Made by a program: the position numbers and the translations under genes. DNA of 64,000 nucleotides from Dyadobacter fermentans DSM 18053 (lineage in GTDB: Bacteria; Bacteroidota; Bacteroidia; Cytophagales; Spirosomataceae), in contig NC_013037.1 of NCBI RefSeq assembly GCF_000023125.1, positions 3,596,001 through 3,660,000 of the forward strand, read 5' to 3'. The notes below the pieces were generated by a model. That model did not search any database. It saw only the letters and a list, made by a program, of their open reading frames with translations, and had not been told where the DNA came from. Each line of letters begins with the position of its first letter. Within the stretch, counting starts at the first letter, position 1. Positions 7,287-16,440 of this stretch are shown one piece after another.

Positions 7287-7898
7287 TTACTTAACGAACA
7301 GTTCGAGCATCTTCTTGCCTTCAATCGAGGCCGTCAGCTTATCGCCGATCTGCACCGGACCCACGCCTTTTGGCGTGCCTGTGAAGATGAGGTCACCCGT
7401 TTTGAGCATGAAGTATTTGGAAACGAAGGAAATCAGGTAGTTAATGCGGTAGATCATCATCGATGAATTTCCACTTTGGCGCGTTTCGCCATTCACATCC
7501 AGGCTGAAATTAATGTCCTGAATATCACCAAAATCCGACACCGGCACAAAATCCGAAACCGGCGCCGAGCCGTTGAATGCCTTCGCGAGCTCCCACGGCA
7601 GGCCTTTCGATTTCAGCTCCGATTGGAGATCGCGGGCCGTGAAATCCACGCCAATGCCGATCTCGCTATAATATTTATGTGCGAATTTCTCTTCGATGTT
7701 CTTCCCTGCCCGGTTGATCTTCACTACGAGCTCCACTTCGTAGTGAACGTCTTTTGAAAATTCCGGGTAGTAAAAGTCCTCGCCCGGGCGGAGTTGTGCG
7801 GTTTCAGGTTTCAGAAATATAACCGGGGAATCGGGTGTCTGGTTGTTCAGTTCGGCGATATGCTCTGCGTAATTCCGGCCTACACAAATAATTTTCAT
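7287..7898 (-). CDS. Fumarylacetoacetate hydrolase (FAH) family protein
   Basis: A 203-residue FAH-fold enzyme, the short single-domain form similar to FAHD1-type acylpyruvase/oxaloacetate decarboxylases. The metal ligands are visible as Glu54 and Glu56 in HYEVELVVK and Asp85 in GVDFTARD, with the family spacing, and there is a C-terminal FTGTPKGVGP signature. Likely substrates are small acylpyruvates or oxaloacetate; the sequence does not settle which. It is the first gene of an operon with the M23 peptidase and bcp and has a clear promoter upstream. Confidence 0.9.
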   Translation of the reverse strand: MKIICVGRNYAEHIAELNNQTPDSPVIFLKPETAQLRPGEDFYYPEFSKDVHYEVELVVKINRAGKNIEEKFAHKYYSEIGIGVDFTARDLQSELKSKGLPWELAKAFNGSAPVSDFVPVSDFGDIQDINFSLDVNGETRQSGNSSMMIYRINYLISFVSKYFMLKTGDLIFTGTPKGVGPVQIGDKLTASIEGKKMLELFVK

Positions 7899-7939
7899 CA
7901 GGGGTCAAATGCTAATTTAAAAGGAATGATCGTCAGGGA

Positions 7940-7971
7940 CAAAGCTACTTACAAAGCCGGGAGCCTACAAT
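7940..7971 (-). promoter_or_regulatory. Bacteroidota-type promoter for the FAH-M23-bcp operon
   Basis: On the minus strand, ATTG is followed by 20 bp and then TAGCTTTG, an exact TAnnTTTG -7 box at 7940-7947. The predicted start of transcription near 7933 gives a leader of about 35 nt before the ATG at 7898. Confidence 0.6.
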
Positions 7972-8038
7972 ATTTGCCACAATTTTTCGGCCGTAATGCA
8001 GTTAAAATAGTAATGCCTACACCGAAAGATTAAATTAT

Positions 8039-8046
8039 TATTTTTG
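8039..8046 (+). promoter_or_regulatory. -7 promoter element for the C40 peptidase gene
   Basis: TATTTTTG matches TAnnTTTG exactly; no good -33 TTG is seen at the usual distance. A transcript would begin near 8053, which excludes the upstream TTG at 8044 as start codon and favours the ATG at 8077. Confidence 0.4.
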
Positions 8047-8076
8047 AAAAAAGTAATCAGGCCAATTCGCTTACGC

Positions 8077-8730
8077 ATGAAGAAGTACCTTTCCCGCCCC
8101 CTTTCCTGCACCATTTTCACCCTCCTGATCACCACATTGCTATTTTCCTGCGACACGCTCCGCAAAACGCCGGAGCGCAACTCGTCCTATCGCAGTTCAC
8201 GCGGGCCCGCCTCGCGGAGCACCGCCTCGCGCGGACGCACCTCACCCGCCCGCAAGCCGGTAGCCAAAGCGCCGGTCAGAAAGCCAGCCCCCACCCGCAC
8301 CGCCACCACTTACTCGCGCCCCGGCGACGCCAATACTGCCAATGTACCCGAAGTAGTGCAAATAGCCCGCACGTATACCGGCACGCCCTATCGCTCGGGC
8401 GGTAACGACAAGCAGGGCATCGACTGCTCCGGCCTCATTTGCCAGGTGTATTCCGAAATGGGCGTAAAAGTGCCCCGCATTTCATGGCAGCAGTCCGAGT
8501 TTGGGCAGGAAGTGGGCAGCGTGGCCGAAATCAAGCCCGGCGACTGGCTGTTTTTCGTGCCCGAAGCCGGAAAGGAAGGCTACGTATCGCACGCCGGCAT
8601 TGTAACCGACGTGCGCAGCCGCGACGAGATCATATTCATCCACGCCTCCACGTCCCGCGGCGTGCGTGAAGACAATCTGTTTTCTACCTATTTTAAAGGC
8701 CGGTTCGTGAAAGCCATGCGGCCGTTCTGA
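8077..8730 (+). CDS. NlpC/P60 (C40) family peptidase, lipoprotein
   Basis: Cell-wall cysteine peptidase that probably cuts peptide stems of peptidoglycan from the membrane or outer membrane. The lipobox LLFSC puts the lipidated Cys at residue 25. Residues ~30-85 form an Arg/Ala/Pro/Ser-rich linker, then comes the NlpC/P60 domain: Cys117 in DCSGLICQVY, His172 in SHAGIV and His189 in IHAS form the catalytic triad. A TTG start 33 bp upstream is possible but lies within the promoter box, so ATG 8077 is preferred (217 residues). Confidence 0.92.
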   Translation: MKKYLSRPLSCTIFTLLITTLLFSCDTLRKTPERNSSYRSSRGPASRSTASRGRTSPARKPVAKAPVRKPAPTRTATTYSRPGDANTANVPEVVQIARTYTGTPYRSGGNDKQGIDCSGLICQVYSEMGVKVPRISWQQSEFGQEVGSVAEIKPGDWLFFVPEAGKEGYVSHAGIVTDVRSRDEIIFIHASTSRGVREDNLFSTYFKGRFVKAMRPF

Positions 8731-8850
8731 TCACCATCCGACCGCTTACGAACTGACCCTGAATAAAATCCGCCAAAGCCATAGGGGTAGCATGGAATGT
8801 GATTGTCCTTTTCGAAATTTGCAGTCATAACTCAATTTCCTCTCCCCAAT

Positions 8851-10071
8851 ATGCAAGACACCTTTGCCCCTCCGCCGATCACCGGCGACCGGACATTAAC
8901 CATCCAGGCCAGTCCAGGCATTCCCGTTTACATTTACGCTACCGTTTTTGCCTCATTCTGCGTCATTACCGGGCTCATCTGGGACATATGCTGGCACATG
9001 AGCATCGGCCGCGACGGGCTGCTTTCTCCGCCGCATTTGGTCATTTACCTTGGTGCAGTGGTAGCCGGGCTGTTTTCGGGTTACGAGATTTTGAGAAAAA
9101 CATTTTTTGGAAGTGACATTGAAAAAGCGGCCAGCGTGAAAATCTGGGGCTTTTTTTACAGTTCGCTCGGTTCGTTATTCTGCGTTTGGGGGGCATTATC
9201 CATGCTCACCTCGGCCCCATTCGACGACTGGTGGCACAACACCTACGGGCTGGACGTCACGATCCTTTCCCCGCCGCATACCGTGCTCATCCTCGGCATT
9301 ATCGGCATTCAGTTCGGGGCGATGATCAGCGTGATTGCCGTAAAGAATCAGATGAAGCTTTTTGATGACTCGGGCAGAGAAAAGGCTAAGGCATTGGATA
9401 AAACACTCTTTTGGCTGTTCGCGTTGTCGGCCGGGTTTCTGCTGACGATCTGGTTTACATTGATATCCGAAGAGCTGGGCCGGATGCGTGTGCACCGGTC
9501 GAGCTACTACATATTTGCAGGGGCTGCATTCCCGCTGCTGTTAATGGCTGTGGGGAAGGCGGTTTCGCACAAATGGGCCGTTACGGCGGTTGCCGGCGTG
9601 TACACAGTATTAATGGCGGGCACCTTATGGATCATTCCCCTCTTCCCCGCAGAACCCAAACTCGGACCGATTTTGAACCACATCACCCATTACCAGGGCT
9701 TCCACTTCCCGTTGCTGCTCATCGCACCGGCCATTGTGATCGACATACTCCGCAACCGATTCGCGCATTGGAACGACTGGAAGCTGACATTCCTGCTCGG
9801 CGCCGCGTTTCTGGCTGTGTTTTTTGTAGTTCAATGGTTTTTCGGGGCATTTCTGATGGAATCGCCGTATGCCCGCAACTGGTTTTTCGGCAGCCATTAC
9901 TGGTATTTCGGAAACGACCCGAACTGGGAATACCGCTACAAGTTCGGGCCGTGGATGGTGGAAGAAACCCCCGAATTGCTCAAAGGAATGGGCATTGCAT
10001 TGGTATTAACATTAATCTCGACCCGCATCGGACTAGCGTGGGGTAACTGGATGTATCAAATTCAACGATGA
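8851..10071 (+). CDS. PmoC/AmoC-like membrane protein (divergent copper membrane monooxygenase subunit; possible C-A fusion)
   Basis: Polytopic membrane protein of 406 residues with about ten hydrophobic helices. Two polar loops carry matched motifs. The first is DICWHMSIGRDGLLSPPH, Asp45-His49-His62, spacing D-x3-H-x12-H; this is the spacing of the CuC site of PmoC (Asp156, His160, His173 in Methylococcus) and it shares the W-H, R-D and P-x-H flanks of AmoC/PmoC. The second, DDWWHNTYGLDVTILSPPH, gives Asp125-His129-His143, D-x3-H-x13-H, the spacing of the CuD site (Asn227, His231, His245) with Asp in place of Asn, and the same W-x-H and P-x-H...ILG context. PmoC is normally about 260-290 residues; the extra C-terminal ~200 residues add helices and a late NW-x-FG-x-H segment that resembles the end of PmoA. 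The ATG at 8851 is preferred to a TTG at 8803. The stop overlaps the next start by 4 bp (ATGA). Homology is inferred from motifs; the substrate is unknown. Confidence 0.7.
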   Translation: MQDTFAPPPITGDRTLTIQASPGIPVYIYATVFASFCVITGLIWDICWHMSIGRDGLLSPPHLVIYLGAVVAGLFSGYEILRKTFFGSDIEKAASVKIWGFFYSSLGSLFCVWGALSMLTSAPFDDWWHNTYGLDVTILSPPHTVLILGIIGIQFGAMISVIAVKNQMKLFDDSGREKAKALDKTLFWLFALSAGFLLTIWFTLISEELGRMRVHRSSYYIFAGAAFPLLLMAVGKAVSHKWAVTAVAGVYTVLMAGTLWIIPLFPAEPKLGPILNHITHYQGFHFPLLLIAPAIVIDILRNRFAHWNDWKLTFLLGAAFLAVFFVVQWFFGAFLMESPYARNWFFGSHYWYFGNDPNWEYRYKFGPWMVEETPELLKGMGIALVLTLISTRIGLAWGNWMYQIQR

Positions 10072-11723
10072 AAAAATATATCTCCCTCATTCTATTCGCG
10101 CTGCTCAGTATCGCTTCGCATGCGCACGTAGGCAGCGCGGGCGTGCAAATGCAGGCGCAGGCGGGTGCCTACAAGGTGCTCGTAAGCATTACACCGCCCG
10201 ACGTGATTCCCGGAACGGCACAGGTATCCGTTTTTATTGAAAACGGCGAGGCCCGCAAAGTGACGGTGCGGCCTATTTACTTCTACTCCGGCGATAAAGG
10301 AGCGCCTTCCGCAGACCCGCTTTCACCCGTTGCAGGCCAGAAAGGACAATTCCAGGGAGCCGTTTGGCTTATGGAACCGGGTTCGTCCAGTGCGCAGATC
10401 AACATTGAGGGAATCCAGGGCGATGCCGAGCTGATCATTCCTATCGTAGCCGTTTCCACCGCGGAGCGCGATATGCCGAAGGGCCTCGGCATCGGTTTGA
10501 GCATTCTGGGACTGTTATTGTTTTTGCTCATGATCACGACCATCGGCGCCAGTGTAAGCGATGGCTTGCTGAAACCCGGCCAGGTCCTTACCGGCGCGCA
10601 GAAACGGAAGCGGTGGATCAATATGGGCATCGCCACGGTGGTATGCTCGCTCATTTTATATGGCGGAAGCAGCTGGTGGGATAGCTGGGCAGCCGAATAC
10701 AAACAATGGTTGTACAAGCCTTTGAAAGCTAAAACCGCGGTGATGGAAGCGGATTCCCAGCGGGCTTTTCAGCTAAAAATCGATACTACCGGCTGGGACC
10801 GGCGCATGAAGGGAAGTATGCTGAGCACACTCGTTCCCGACCACGGGAAGATCATGCACACGTTTCTCGTGCGCACGCCGGGGCTCGATGCATTTGCCCA
10901 CGTGCACCCCGATCGCAAAGATAGCCTCACGTTCCAGGCAGCGCTGCCCGATTTGCCGGCGGGGAAATACTTGGTTTATTCAGACATCGTCCAATATTCT
11001 GGCTTTGCCGAAACGATCGTAGATACACTGGTTATCCCGGCCCCGAAAACTGCCGCTCAAACAGCCCGGGCGGCATCGGAGGACGACAACTACATCATCA
11101 CCGACCCGCTCGATACCCCCGGCAGGGTGCCCATGGGCGAAAACGTCGTGATTTGCGGGAAGCCTGGCACCAAAACCGTTTTCAAGGACGGGTCCTACGC
11201 CATTTGGGAAGGCAAGCCCGACAAGCCGCTCGATGCCGGAAAGCCTTATCAGCTTAACTTCGAAATTTTCAATCCCGATAACAGCCCCTGCTTTCCCGAG
11301 CCTTACCTGGGAATGCTCGGCCACGCGGTGGTCATGCGGTCGGATGGCTCGGTGTACATTCACCTCCACCCGAGCGGCTCCTATTCGATGGCGGCAGAGC
11401 AATCGTTCGAAAACCGCATTTCGGACACGGCCCATGTGGCCAGGCGGCCCAAACCGGACGTGTTCCGCGACAGCATCGACCGGCACCTGGCCCGGCTGAA
11501 CACCATGCCCACGGTGGACCGCGAGCTGTTTCTCATGGGGGAAATGGGCATGTATAATGCTGAGGAAGGCGGCATGACGGGCATGGAGCACGGCACACGC
11601 ATTTCTTTTCCGTATGCATTCCCGAAAGCCGGACAGTATCGGATATTCCTTCAAATCAAAAGAAACGACAAAGTCCTGACCGGCGCCTTCGATGTGAAGG
11701 TCACCGATCCGGTTGCATTATAG
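10068..11723 (+). CDS. PmoB/AmoB-like periplasmic subunit with two H-x-H-P metal-binding modules
   Basis: A 551-residue exported protein, translationally coupled to the PmoC-like gene (ATGA overlap). The signal peptide ends SHA, so His20 would be the first mature residue, as His33 is in PmoB. Next come a beta-type domain (about 20-135), two membrane helices (about 138-160 and 183-200) and a large periplasmic part: the N-domain, helical hairpin, C-domain plan of PmoB/AmoB. The HxH pair that completes CuB in PmoB is not seen in the N-domain. Instead the C-terminal part has two similar modules, one with His259, His264, His278 and His280 (AFAHVHP), one with His419, His432 and His434 (VYIHLHP). 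These look like the H-x-H-P beta modules of secreted copper or heavy-metal proteins (YtkA/FixH-like). The conserved tail has a Met- and His-containing stretch (GMTGMEHG). The role as metal-bearing partner of the upstream protein is inferred. Confidence 0.6.
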   Translation: MKKYISLILFALLSIASHAHVGSAGVQMQAQAGAYKVLVSITPPDVIPGTAQVSVFIENGEARKVTVRPIYFYSGDKGAPSADPLSPVAGQKGQFQGAVWLMEPGSSSAQINIEGIQGDAELIIPIVAVSTAERDMPKGLGIGLSILGLLLFLLMITTIGASVSDGLLKPGQVLTGAQKRKRWINMGIATVVCSLILYGGSSWWDSWAAEYKQWLYKPLKAKTAVMEADSQRAFQLKIDTTGWDRRMKGSMLSTLVPDHGKIMHTFLVRTPGLDAFAHVHPDRKDSLTFQAALPDLPAGKYLVYSDIVQYSGFAETIVDTLVIPAPKTAAQTARAASEDDNYIITDPLDTPGRVPMGENVVICGKPGTKTVFKDGSYAIWEGKPDKPLDAGKPYQLNFEIFNPDNSPCFPEPYLGMLGHAVVMRSDGSVYIHLHPSGSYSMAAEQSFENRISDTAHVARRPKPDVFRDSIDRHLARLNTMPTVDRELFLMGEMGMYNAEEGGMTGMEHGTRISFPYAFPKAGQYRIFLQIKRNDKVLTGAFDVKVTDPVAL

Positions 11724-14309: not shown

Positions 14310-14744
14310 ATGAAAGACAGCGAAAGAATCAGTAATCTGGAAGAAATGACGGCAGAAATTCTCATGCGCCTCGACCGCATCGACGCAGAACTTGGACAAC
14401 TCCGTAAAGGACAATCTCAAACGATTGGCCGGATGGATTCGATGGAAGAAACTATGCGAGAACTGGCAAAGTACATGTTCGAGCTCAACGACCGCCAGAC
14501 AATGGTGGAAGAAACCATGCGGGACATTTCGACCATGAATAGAATTATGCTCAAAAAAATGGACAGGATGGTGACAAAGGACGACCTGGAAGCTATGGCT
14601 ACCAAAGACGACCTTATTAAGCTATTCGATTTCGTTGTCGATCGCTTTAACGCAGCTGACACCAGATTTGATCAGATCGACAAGCGCCTCGATAATCTCG
14701 AAAAGCAAAACGGCAGCGACCAGCCTGATAGCCCACAATCTTAA
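14310..14744 (+). CDS. Coiled-coil protein of unknown function
   Basis: A 144-residue soluble protein that is almost all heptad-repeat helix: ISNLEEMTAEILMRLDRIDAEL at the start and a second coil near 100-135 (FNAADTRFDQIDKRLDNLE). It contains a tandem VTKDDLEAMATKDDLIKLF stretch, a sequence seen in many short bacterial coiled-coil proteins of unknown role, including phage and t-SNARE-like families. No signal peptide or membrane segment. It is followed 23 bp on by ispF, but a functional tie is not evident. Confidence 0.7.
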   Translation: MKDSERISNLEEMTAEILMRLDRIDAELGQLRKGQSQTIGRMDSMEETMRELAKYMFELNDRQTMVEETMRDISTMNRIMLKKMDRMVTKDDLEAMATKDDLIKLFDFVVDRFNAADTRFDQIDKRLDNLEKQNGSDQPDSPQS

Positions 14745-14767
14745 CCATTATCAATTTCAGTTTTATT

Positions 14768-15271
14768 ATGTTCCCATTCCGCGTAGGCCAGGGCTACGAT
14801 GTTCATCAGTTGGTAGAAGGCCGGCCTTTCTGGCTCGGCGGTATTTTGATCCCCCACACACACGGTGCCAAAGGCCATTCCGACGCCGATGTGGTGTGCC
14901 ACGTAATGTGCGACGCGCTGCTCGGCGCAGCCAATCTCCGCAATATCGGCTACCATTTTTCCGACAAAGACCCGCAATGGAAGGGCGTCGACAGCAAAAT
15001 TCTGCTGGCCAAAGTATTGGAAATGATCCGCGAAAAAGGCTACGAAGTCGGAAACGTGGATGTGACCATCGTACTCCAAAATCCAAAACTGAACCCGCAC
15101 ATTCCTGCCATGAAAACCTGCCTGGCAGAGGTGACGGGCATATCCGAAGAAGACATTTCGATCAAAGCTACCACTTCCGAGCATTTGGGATTTGTGGGAC
15201 GGGAGGAAGGCATTGCGGCGCATTGCGTAGCGTTGATCTATCAACCCGGCACGTTCCCGGGAATTGCCTGA
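14768..15271 (+). CDS. ispF: 2-C-methyl-D-erythritol 2,4-cyclodiphosphate synthase
   Basis: Trimeric enzyme of the MEP isoprenoid pathway; it turns CDP-ME 2-phosphate into the cyclic diphosphate with release of CMP. Zinc ligands are Asp11 and His13 in GYDVHQL and His45; the SDADV loop and the C-terminal TTSEHLGFVGREEGI signature are intact. The 167-residue length is normal. It overlaps in another frame with the spurious upstream extension of the next ORF. Confidence 0.96.
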   Translation: MFPFRVGQGYDVHQLVEGRPFWLGGILIPHTHGAKGHSDADVVCHVMCDALLGAANLRNIGYHFSDKDPQWKGVDSKILLAKVLEMIREKGYEVGNVDVTIVLQNPKLNPHIPAMKTCLAEVTGISEEDISIKATTSEHLGFVGREEGIAAHCVALIYQPGTFPGIA

Positions 15272-15300
15272 CCAACGACCTGTATAATCCATCGATCCTC

Positions 15301-16440
15301 ATGAAAAAAGTATTGCTGTGCCTTTCGGTTTCACTTTCCGTCACTTTCAGCGCATGCGCCCAGCAGCAGTCGGCGCCGCTTACCGAACAGCCGCTCGGTT
15401 TTGAAGAATATGACCCGGTTTCCACATTGAAAGTCGAGGAACATCCGGTGAAAAAGGCGAAGTTTCCGTTTATCGACGTCCACAATCATCAGTACCAAAT
15501 GCCCTCGCAGGATTTGAAAGCGTTGGTGAAACAGATGGATGCATTAAATATGGCCATTATGGTCAACCTGAGCGGTCGCGGGTGGACGCAGGAATGGGCG
15601 GAGGGCACTGCCACGCTGAAAGGCTCGCTGGAAAACGTTTCAAAAAACGAACCGAAGCGGATTGCCGTTTTCACAAACCTGCAATTCAAGGGGTTTGGTG
15701 AAAAAGATTGGTCGGCCAGGGCTGTGAAACAATTGGAAGAAGATGTAAAAATGGGCGCGAAAGGCCTGAAAATCTATAAAAGTTTGGGCTTTACGGGCAT
15801 CAAGGACGACAAAGGCAACCGTGTGCCGGTGAGCGATCCGCGTTTGCAGCCCGTTTGGCAAAAATGCGGCGAACTAGGCATTCCCGTGCTGATCCACACC
15901 GCCGATGTGCCTTCGTTCTGGGACCCGATGGACCGCTACAACGAACGCTGGCTGGAACTCAAAACCCACCCCGGACGCAAGCGCGGCATCAATGACCCCA
16001 TCCCGTTCGACTCGCTGATCGCCGAACAGCACCACATTTTCCGGATGAACCCCAAAACGACGTTCATTAACGCGCATATGGGCTGGTATCCCAACGACCT
16101 CCGAAAACTCGACAGCCTGATGATCGCGTTTCCGAATATGTATGTGGAAATTGGCGCGGTGATCGCGGAATTGGGCCGCCAGCCCCGGACCGCCAAGAAG
16201 TTTTTTGATAAATACCAGGACCGAGTGCTTTTCGGGAAGGACAGCTGGGTGCCTGCCGAATACGCAACCTACTTCCGGGTGCTGGAAACGGAGGATGAAT
16301 ATTTCCCTTACCATAAAAAGTACCACGCGTTCTGGCGCATGTACGGTATGGGGCTTTCCGACGAAGTTTTGAAAAAGCTCTATTATAAAAACGCACTGAA
16401 AATCATTCCGGGACTCGACAAAAGCCAGTTCCCAAATTGA
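15301..16440 (+). CDS. Secreted amidohydrolase family protein (TIM-barrel metal-dependent hydrolase)
   Basis: A 379-residue amidohydrolase-2 family protein. The leader MKKVLLCLSVSLSVTFSAC has a lipobox-like Cys at about residue 19, so it is likely a lipoprotein or a secreted protein. The metal-binding DVHNH motif lies near residues 59-63; later family elements are PVLIHTADVP, INAHMGWYPND and FGKDSWVP, supplying the further His and Asp ligands. Members hydrolyse or decarboxylate small cyclic or aromatic compounds; the substrate is unknown. The ATG at 15301 is chosen because the longer open frame runs back through ispF with no coding character. Confidence 0.85.
   Translation: MKKVLLCLSVSLSVTFSACAQQQSAPLTEQPLGFEEYDPVSTLKVEEHPVKKAKFPFIDVHNHQYQMPSQDLKALVKQMDALNMAIMVNLSGRGWTQEWAEGTATLKGSLENVSKNEPKRIAVFTNLQFKGFGEKDWSARAVKQLEEDVKMGAKGLKIYKSLGFTGIKDDKGNRVPVSDPRLQPVWQKCGELGIPVLIHTADVPSFWDPMDRYNERWLELKTHPGRKRGINDPIPFDSLIAEQHHIFRMNPKTTFINAHMGWYPNDLRKLDSLMIAFPNMYVEIGAVIAELGRQPRTAKKFFDKYQDRVLFGKDSWVPAEYATYFRVLETEDEYFPYHKKYHAFWRMYGMGLSDEVLKKLYYKNALKIIPGLDKSQFPN

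Follow-up and report, generated by a model that had tools for sequence, protein, structure and literature searches.

A Dyadobacter fermentans gene pair apparently carrying the copper-site module of the PmoC/AmoC subunit

Introduction

The C subunit of the copper membrane monooxygenases (CuMMO), known as PmoC or AmoC (PF04896), contains two copper sites which are central to a long dispute over where particulate methane monooxygenase (pMMO) works. The portions of PMC12576850 used here list Asp156, His160 and His173 as the ligands of CuC and Asn227, His231 and His245 as those of CuD. They also place PmoC Arg165 and Phe177 in the surroundings of CuD, the site proposed there as the active site of pMMO. 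Here we describe a locus of Dyadobacter fermentans DSM 18053 that encodes a membrane protein with PmoC-like motifs (P1) and a predicted periplasmic partner (P2). The locus lies in a window of 64,000 nucleotides (contig NC_013037.1, positions 3,596,001 to 3,660,000), which is the whole stretch analysed and part of a 6.97 Mb single-contig genome.

Two further systems are relevant for comparison. YcnJ of B. subtilis is a CopC-CopD-YtkA copper importer, whose YtkA domain helps to assemble CuA together with CtaK and Sco, according to the relevant part of PMC13344008. YcnI, a monohistidine brace protein of the DUF1775 type, has a soluble extracytoplasmic domain with a single conserved N-terminal His and a conserved Trp (PMC8424229, in part).

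Two copper-type motifs in P1

The P1 open reading frame (ORF) starts with ATG at 8851 and its stop codon ends at 10071; a mechanically called TTG start is also present at 8803. The genes for P1 and P2 share the letters ATGA and have the appearance of a two-gene operon. The main features are as follows.

8851..10071, + strand: P1, PmoC/AmoC-like membrane protein of 406 residues with multiple transmembrane helices (from ORF, alignment, hydropathy scan and profile ranking)
8983..9036, + strand: CuC-like site of P1, D45-x3-H49-x12-H62 with R54 in the register of PmoC Arg165; Y66, in the register of Phe177, follows just after
9223..9279, + strand: CuD-like site of P1, D125-x3-H129-x13-H143; the first position is Asn in PmoC
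10068..11723, + strand: P2, predicted periplasmic partner of 551 residues (downstream of P1 in 77 of 80 loci)

An earlier note, made from the letters of this DNA, had proposed that two motifs of P1 reproduce the ligand spacings of CuC and CuD in the same order. We confirmed this using the ligands given in PMC12576850. Site 1 reads D45ICWH49MSIGRDGLLSPPH62 (D-x3-H-x12-H) and site 2 reads D125DWWH129NTYGLDVTILSPPH143 (D-x3-H-x13-H). The starts of the two motifs are 80 residues apart in P1. The note had set this against about 70 in PmoC. Of three CuMMO C subunits that we measured, two have a distance of 71 and one of 73.

Conservation of P1 was judged on a 50-sequence alignment of Bacteroidota relatives (A3). 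All six ligands and R54, which matches PmoC Arg165, were invariant in 50/50 sequences. The CuC-type spacing Asp-x3-His-x12-His was thus kept throughout. At the second site the spacing and both His residues were kept, but Asn was replaced by Asp in all 50 sequences. W48, R54, D55, P61, Y66, P141 and P142 were also invariant. The flanking residues named in the note therefore stand in part: W-H, R-D and the P-x-H of site 2 do not vary, whereas P60 in the P-x-H of site 1 is replaced by Ala or Glu in some rows and the "ILG" of site 2 is weak.

The P1-type group is much wider than one Bacteroidota genome. In the protein database 5941 of 8000 scored candidates matched P1 at E ≤ 0.001, and 120 of these were listed. 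Both sites were present in 116 of 120 entries listed with P1 as the query, and likewise in 116 of 120 listed with a Leifsonia protein. Seven of the eight misses were shorter entries, and the eighth was P0268 with 543 residues. Among GTDB genomes 457 stretches encode a P1 relative. The analysis was performed on the best 80 of these, all from Bacteroidota by their titles except one titled merely "bacterium". Both motifs, in order and within 150 residues, were found in all 81 P1-type ORFs of these 80 loci and in none of their 843 other ORFs. No P1 relative was found among viral contigs, where nine stretches matched a pattern and none was confirmed.

A simple hydropathy scan predicted about 10 transmembrane helices in P1, with the two-site core at residues ~26-153 and about six more helices after it. 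The site loops contain one and no Lys/Arg, the next loops on the opposite side four and five, and the N-terminal tail one. Because of this bias, read by the positive-inside rule, both site loops are predicted to face the periplasm.

Homology of P1 to the CuMMO C subunit

Weak tests did not detect the relationship. P1 as a single sequence had no match in the PDB, and single-sequence PDB and Pfam searches with P1 and P2 gave no usable family. Neither protein matched any Pfam or NCBIfam family above the cut-off. Searching plasmids with tblastn, we obtained distant actinobacterial relatives of P1 that keep both sites. Such distant relatives are included in three further alignments (A2, A8 and A9, which share sequences), and with their addition the profiles reached CuMMO C subunits among 177,635 distinct PDB sequences, although a single sequence or the Bacteroidota-only profile had failed. 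A2 gave three matches at E ≤ 10, all to ammonia monooxygenase subunit C (E 0.011-0.027), and A9 also gave three, again all to this subunit (E 0.072-0.19). A8 gave 15 matches (best E 0.035), of which 11 were CuMMO C subunits, including the top four, and the other four were ribosomal eS8. The alignments of the top four place both copper sites in register. None of these E-values is significant alone.

The reciprocal test was performed on 864 sequences, comprising 13 CuMMO C, four A and four B subunits and 843 decoy ORFs, which were neighbouring ORFs and not a membrane-only set. Hidden Markov models (HMM) of A8 and of A9 each placed 13/13 C subunits above all decoys and above the A and B subunits. 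In the other direction, the CuMMO-C HMM ranked 155 of 221 family members ahead of the first decoy (best E 8e-7). In hhalign, A8 aligned with the CuMMO C subunit at P 5.6e-5, against P 0.24 for the PmoA control; its score was reached by 0/300 column shuffles and by 1/200 shuffles of 10-column blocks. PF04896 itself weakly matched 10 of the 21 A9 members (best E 0.0032) and 7 of the 19 A8 members (best E 0.0042); all those with a known bit score fell short of the curated cut-off.

Several results count against placing P1 on a PmoC module. The highest hhalign probability between the P1 family and the CuMMO C subunit was 66%. The Bacteroidota-only profile A3 had no PDB match, and its hhalign probability was 19%, though both sites were in register. 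The mycobacterial-type sequences (n = 20) were absent from the first 150 matches of the CuMMO-C HMM. In single-sequence scans PF18916 (Lycopene_cyc) was roughly on a par with AmoC for A8 members (10/19 vs 7/19; best E 0.0051 vs 0.0042).

These values leave a little room for the view that P1 is unrelated to CuMMO and has converged on a metal-binding spacing. The empty single-sequence and Bacteroidota-only PDB searches would fit it, as would the lack of any PF04896 match in the source genome at E ≤ 10 and the hhalign probabilities, none above 66%. It is opposed by the reciprocal ranking above all decoys, the shuffle controls and the PDB profile searches. The positions of helix, loop and helix also match, and the 71-residue spacing of two of the three CuMMO C subunits recurs in 111 of the 116 Leifsonia-type relatives that have both motifs. 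We consider convergence very improbable; P1 is almost certainly a distant relative of CuMMO C subunits and keeps both copper sites. To PmoC/AmoC it is joined by D-x3-H-x12-H, N/D-x3-H-x13-H, the Arg of R-D and the flanking helices in their order, and through most Leifsonia-type relatives by the inter-motif spacing. It differs by Asp in place of the CuD Asn, by Tyr at the position of Phe177, by about six further C-terminal helices within its 406 residues, and by the lack of a detected A subunit gene.

A weak match of A3 to PmoA (P 0.054) was taken as chance; therefore we make no claim that the C-terminal half of P1 replaces PmoA.

P2 and its comparison with PmoB

The features of P2 are given below.

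10068..10124, + strand: predicted signal peptide, with cleavage after A19 giving a mature N-terminal His20 (alignment)
10125..10472, + strand: N-terminal domain, residues 20-135, with invariant H20, W100 and M102 (alignment)
10488..10673, + strand: two predicted transmembrane helices (residues 141-159 and 184-202) with their connecting loop (hydropathy)
10842..10910, + strand: first His motif, H259GKxM263H264...FAH278xH280P, in a weakly YtkA-like region
11322..11372, + strand: second His motif, H419...YIH432LH434P

P2 is thus built from a signal peptide, an initial soluble domain, a pair of transmembrane helices and a large second soluble part. Among 39 aligned P2 proteins position 20 was always His, preceded by A in 27, G in eight and S in four, and mature P2 would accordingly begin with His. 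Besides the residues of the N-terminal domain, H259, M263, H264, H278, H280, C363, M416, H419, H432 and H434 were invariant. An internal repeat of the two His motifs was weak (hhalign P 0.0017-0.005). YtkA weakly matched 6/39 P2 proteins (best E 0.0009, below the cut-off where bits were known).

The earlier note had described the partner as PmoB-shaped. The gross layout bears this out: like the CuMMO B subunit (PmoB, PF04744), P2 has a signal peptide, a mature N-terminal His, a soluble domain, transmembrane helices and a second soluble region. The likeness is one of layout only; no homology of the P2 profile (A4) to a profile of four PmoB sequences was detectable (hhalign P 0.22). The CuB ligands of PmoB are His33, His137 and His139, and no invariant HxH was found in P2 residues 20-135; the HxHP pairs of P2 lie in its C-terminal part. 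With YcnI, P2 shares the single conserved N-terminal His, the conserved Trp and a soluble extracytoplasmic domain. It differs in that none of the four P2 N-terminal domains scanned matched DUF1775, and in that we identified in P2 an invariant Met102 but no counterpart of the Glu ligand of YcnI described in the portion of PMC8424229 consulted.

The note had further placed the whole locus in the CuMMO family. This is supported for P1 and unsupported for the locus. The A subunit family PF02461 had no match in the source genome at E ≤ 10 (control genomes were matched only below the cut-off), and no third gene recurs in more than 40 of the 80 loci. A very divergent A subunit elsewhere in the genome is possible. 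PF04744 did not match the source genome either, a search uninformative alone because no control genome was matched. Since no A subunit was detected, P2 lacks PmoB homology and the CuB HxH, and the CuD Asn is Asp, P1-P2 is, as judged from its sequences, not a CuMMO as defined.

A monooxygenase reading is possible, though not the best supported. P1-P2 might be a genuine copper oxygenase or oxidase, a CuMMO-like enzyme of two genes in which O2 is activated at the CuD-like site of P1. Its substrate could be a small organic molecule or Cu(I) itself, and P2 would provide the copper or the electrons. Invariance of six ligands and a second-sphere Arg is what catalysis would lead one to expect, the text cited above proposes that CuD is where pMMO has its active site, and the layout of P2 is PmoB-like. 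The undetected A subunit, the Asp at CuD and the missing HxH in the N-terminal domain of P2 argue the other way. We regard this oxygenase as a possibility of rather low probability. Less likely still is its extension, in which the PmoC module works without PmoA, so that P1-P2 would be a minimal O2-activating copper membrane enzyme, common among heterotrophs of the Bacteroidota and Actinobacteria. It would then represent the ancestral line of the methane and ammonia monooxygenases, which became three-subunit enzymes by gaining an A subunit.

Co-occurrence of P1 and P2

P2 was found downstream of P1 in 77 of the 80 loci. Of the three exceptions, L053 and L075 are sequences that stop just past P1. 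In the third, L051 from one Cytophagales genome, the P2 position is taken by another ORF (7404-8864) without a Pfam match; therefore P1 may exist without P2.

Among 200 genomes of one bacterial family, 124 contained P1, 127 contained P2, 123 contained both and 72 neither. The one genome with P1 only (G426) had a partial match. The four with P2 only were G325 and G369, in which just the C-terminal part was present, G429, with a fragment containing stops, and G422, a draft of 570 contigs. In G326, counted among the 123 with both, P2 was present as fragments only.

G325 and G369 belong to the genus of the window. Their C-terminal P2 remnants (L190, 3384-4550, and L191) are changed at H259, H278, H434 and M416, in addition to D258, Y430 and S469, and at D306 in one of them. 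The 39 aligned P2 proteins share 50 invariant positions from residue 216 onwards, and the remnants keep 42 or 43 of these. Because the two genomes are near relatives, we count these losses as one evolutionary event.

Copy number varied in some genomes. Tandem duplication of P1 was observed in G249 (L003/L004), where the tandem is followed by a single P2, in L053 and in G326. Three genomes (G312, G337 and G407) had two copies of both P1 and P2.

Actinobacterial fused proteins

In Actinobacteria the counterpart is a single gene, with a PmoC-like core and further helices. In the Leifsonia type these are followed by A-x-A-H-D-P-G-Q-G, a soluble domain and a final helix. The relatives listed for the Leifsonia protein, 120 in number, all have H326; 119 of them have A325 and 118 have A323. 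The A-x-A|H junction after a helix looks like a signal-peptidase site that would free an N-terminal His, and a His at this point is shared with PmoB (A-H-G-E) and P2. The mycobacterial type (L086, 4749-6599; P0121-P0240) has two extra residues in site 1, giving D-x3-H-x14-H in 120/120. Comparing the first domain of P2 with the C-terminal domain of the actinobacterial proteins gave a weak match (hhalign P 0.0062). No plasmid relative of P2 was found at E ≤ 1e-3. An Acyl_transf_3 match in one Streptomyces fusion (E 3.4e-5, below the cut-off) was set aside as a match to hydrophobic segments.

We assessed copper context in seven actinobacterial plasmid loci, leaving out Streptomyces FR1, which gave the same match as F2. 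Copper genes were clear in four of the seven, ambiguous in two and absent in one. The mycobacterial-type fusion of a M. vanbaalenii plasmid adjoins CopC. The Leifsonia locus contains a copper-binding four-helix protein and two heavy-metal P-type ATPases, the Streptomyces F2 locus a multicopper oxidase and a cupredoxin, and the S. mirabilis locus a cupredoxin, a heavy-metal-associated protein and a P-type ATPase. The M. aubagnense and M. chubuense loci had only BlaI/MecI/CopY-type regulators, which are ambiguous, and the Rubrobacter locus had no copper genes. This context stands against the oxygenase.

On M. chubuense pMYCCH.01 (L093/L178) a standard CuMMO C-A-B operon is present at ~572-575 kb, and the fused family member lies far off, at ~407 kb.

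Close to the M. vanbaalenii homologue lies a gene for subunit III of a heme-copper oxidase, which would suit a further explanation, in which P1-P2 is an assembly factor of a specific respiratory cuproenzyme, e.g. a heme-copper oxidase, delivering copper to CuA or CuB. The weak YtkA- and FixH-like matches (in the fused proteins FixH 2/21 and YtkA 1/21) point the same way, as does the role of the YcnJ YtkA domain in CuA assembly with CtaK and Sco. Oxidase genes, in contrast, were found among none of 30 tested Bacteroidota neighbours, and P1 was present in only 124 of the 200 genomes of one family. We find a dedicated assembly factor unlikely.

Gene neighbourhoods in Bacteroidota

Pfam was run on 30 neighbours from 20 Bacteroidota loci, a minority of all neighbours. 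These 30 included no recognised copper gene and no obvious hydrocarbon- or ammonia-oxygenase partner. They included a tRNA synthetase, a DNA polymerase, regulators, a TonB receptor, ApbE, a fatty-acid hydroxylase and a cation P-type ATPase of the Cation_ATPase_N/C type; others were housekeeping or regulatory. For neighbours in L050 and L059 the size had suggested efflux pumps; Pfam identified a penicillin amidase and a sortilin-type protein instead. Apart from P2, no gene family recurred in more than 40 of the 80 loci. The recurrent ones, such as a FAA-hydrolase-family gene in 34/80 loci, mostly reflect Dyadobacter synteny.

In three of four Larkinella loci (L064, L073 and L082) P2 is followed by a small gene of one cluster, which L074 lacks. 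The L064 gene, the sole cluster member run, is a c-type cytochrome by Pfam.

For the oxygenase these neighbourhoods cut both ways. The lack of recognised copper genes among the tested neighbours and the Larkinella cytochrome favour it, and the lack of any family other than P2 that recurs in more than 40 of the 80 loci does not.

Proposed function

P1-P2 would be expected to bind copper, and we give roughly even chances to its being a copper capture or hand-over unit built on the PmoC copper module. P1 and P2 would form a copper-binding complex of the cytoplasmic membrane, on the two-site module of the CuMMO C subunit. The soluble parts of P2 would lie on the periplasmic side, the same as the site loops of P1. 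P2 may capture copper through its N-terminal-His domain and His motifs and exchange it with the paired Asp-His-His sites of P1, and the pair could thus serve to acquire copper, to buffer it or to hand it over. We place copper handling above substrate oxidation for four reasons: the gene context in Actinobacteria, the failure to detect an A subunit, the weak likeness to YtkA/FixH, and the fact that none of the neighbours tested is catabolic. The co-occurrence of P1 and P2 supports copper handling, as does the loss of P2 His residues in the remnants without P1.

YcnJ offers a close parallel in layout: it has an extracellular N-terminal-His copper domain, a multi-helix membrane part with an essential His (in PMC13344008, as far as consulted), a YtkA domain and a link to copper. 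The differences are that neither P1 nor P2 has a CopC or CopD match in Pfam, that the membrane core is PmoC-like, and that the YtkA likeness of P2 is weak.

Other observations speak against copper handling. Beyond residue 153 of P1 the sole strictly invariant Met, Cys or His is M401, with H215 nearly invariant, and for this reason a transmembrane copper path is not evident. The strict conservation of the second-sphere Arg would suit catalysis. DUF4131 matched more P2 proteins (7/39) than YtkA did, the plasmid loci are biased towards metal resistance, and the tested Bacteroidota neighbours, as said, contained no recognised copper gene.

In the open-licence literature searched, subscription journals and preprints being outside its scope, we found no description of the P1/P2 family in the parts consulted, including those of PMC12533140 and PMC6215863. 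The family is real, widespread and apparently undescribed, and carries the PmoC copper module. With both sites and one conserved partner present in readily cultured heterotrophs, the roles of CuC and CuD become testable outside methanotrophs. The P1 family is also a candidate for the kin among which the C subunit of methane- and ammonia-oxidising enzymes could have had its origin, and remote PmoC matches in metagenomes need not signal methane or ammonia oxidation.

Another reading frame of the window

Elsewhere in the window, a mechanically called ORF of 601 residues (14635-16440) overlaps a shorter one (14768-15271) in a different frame. The shorter ORF we take, by eye, to be IspF-like, and the first third of the longer one is probably non-coding.

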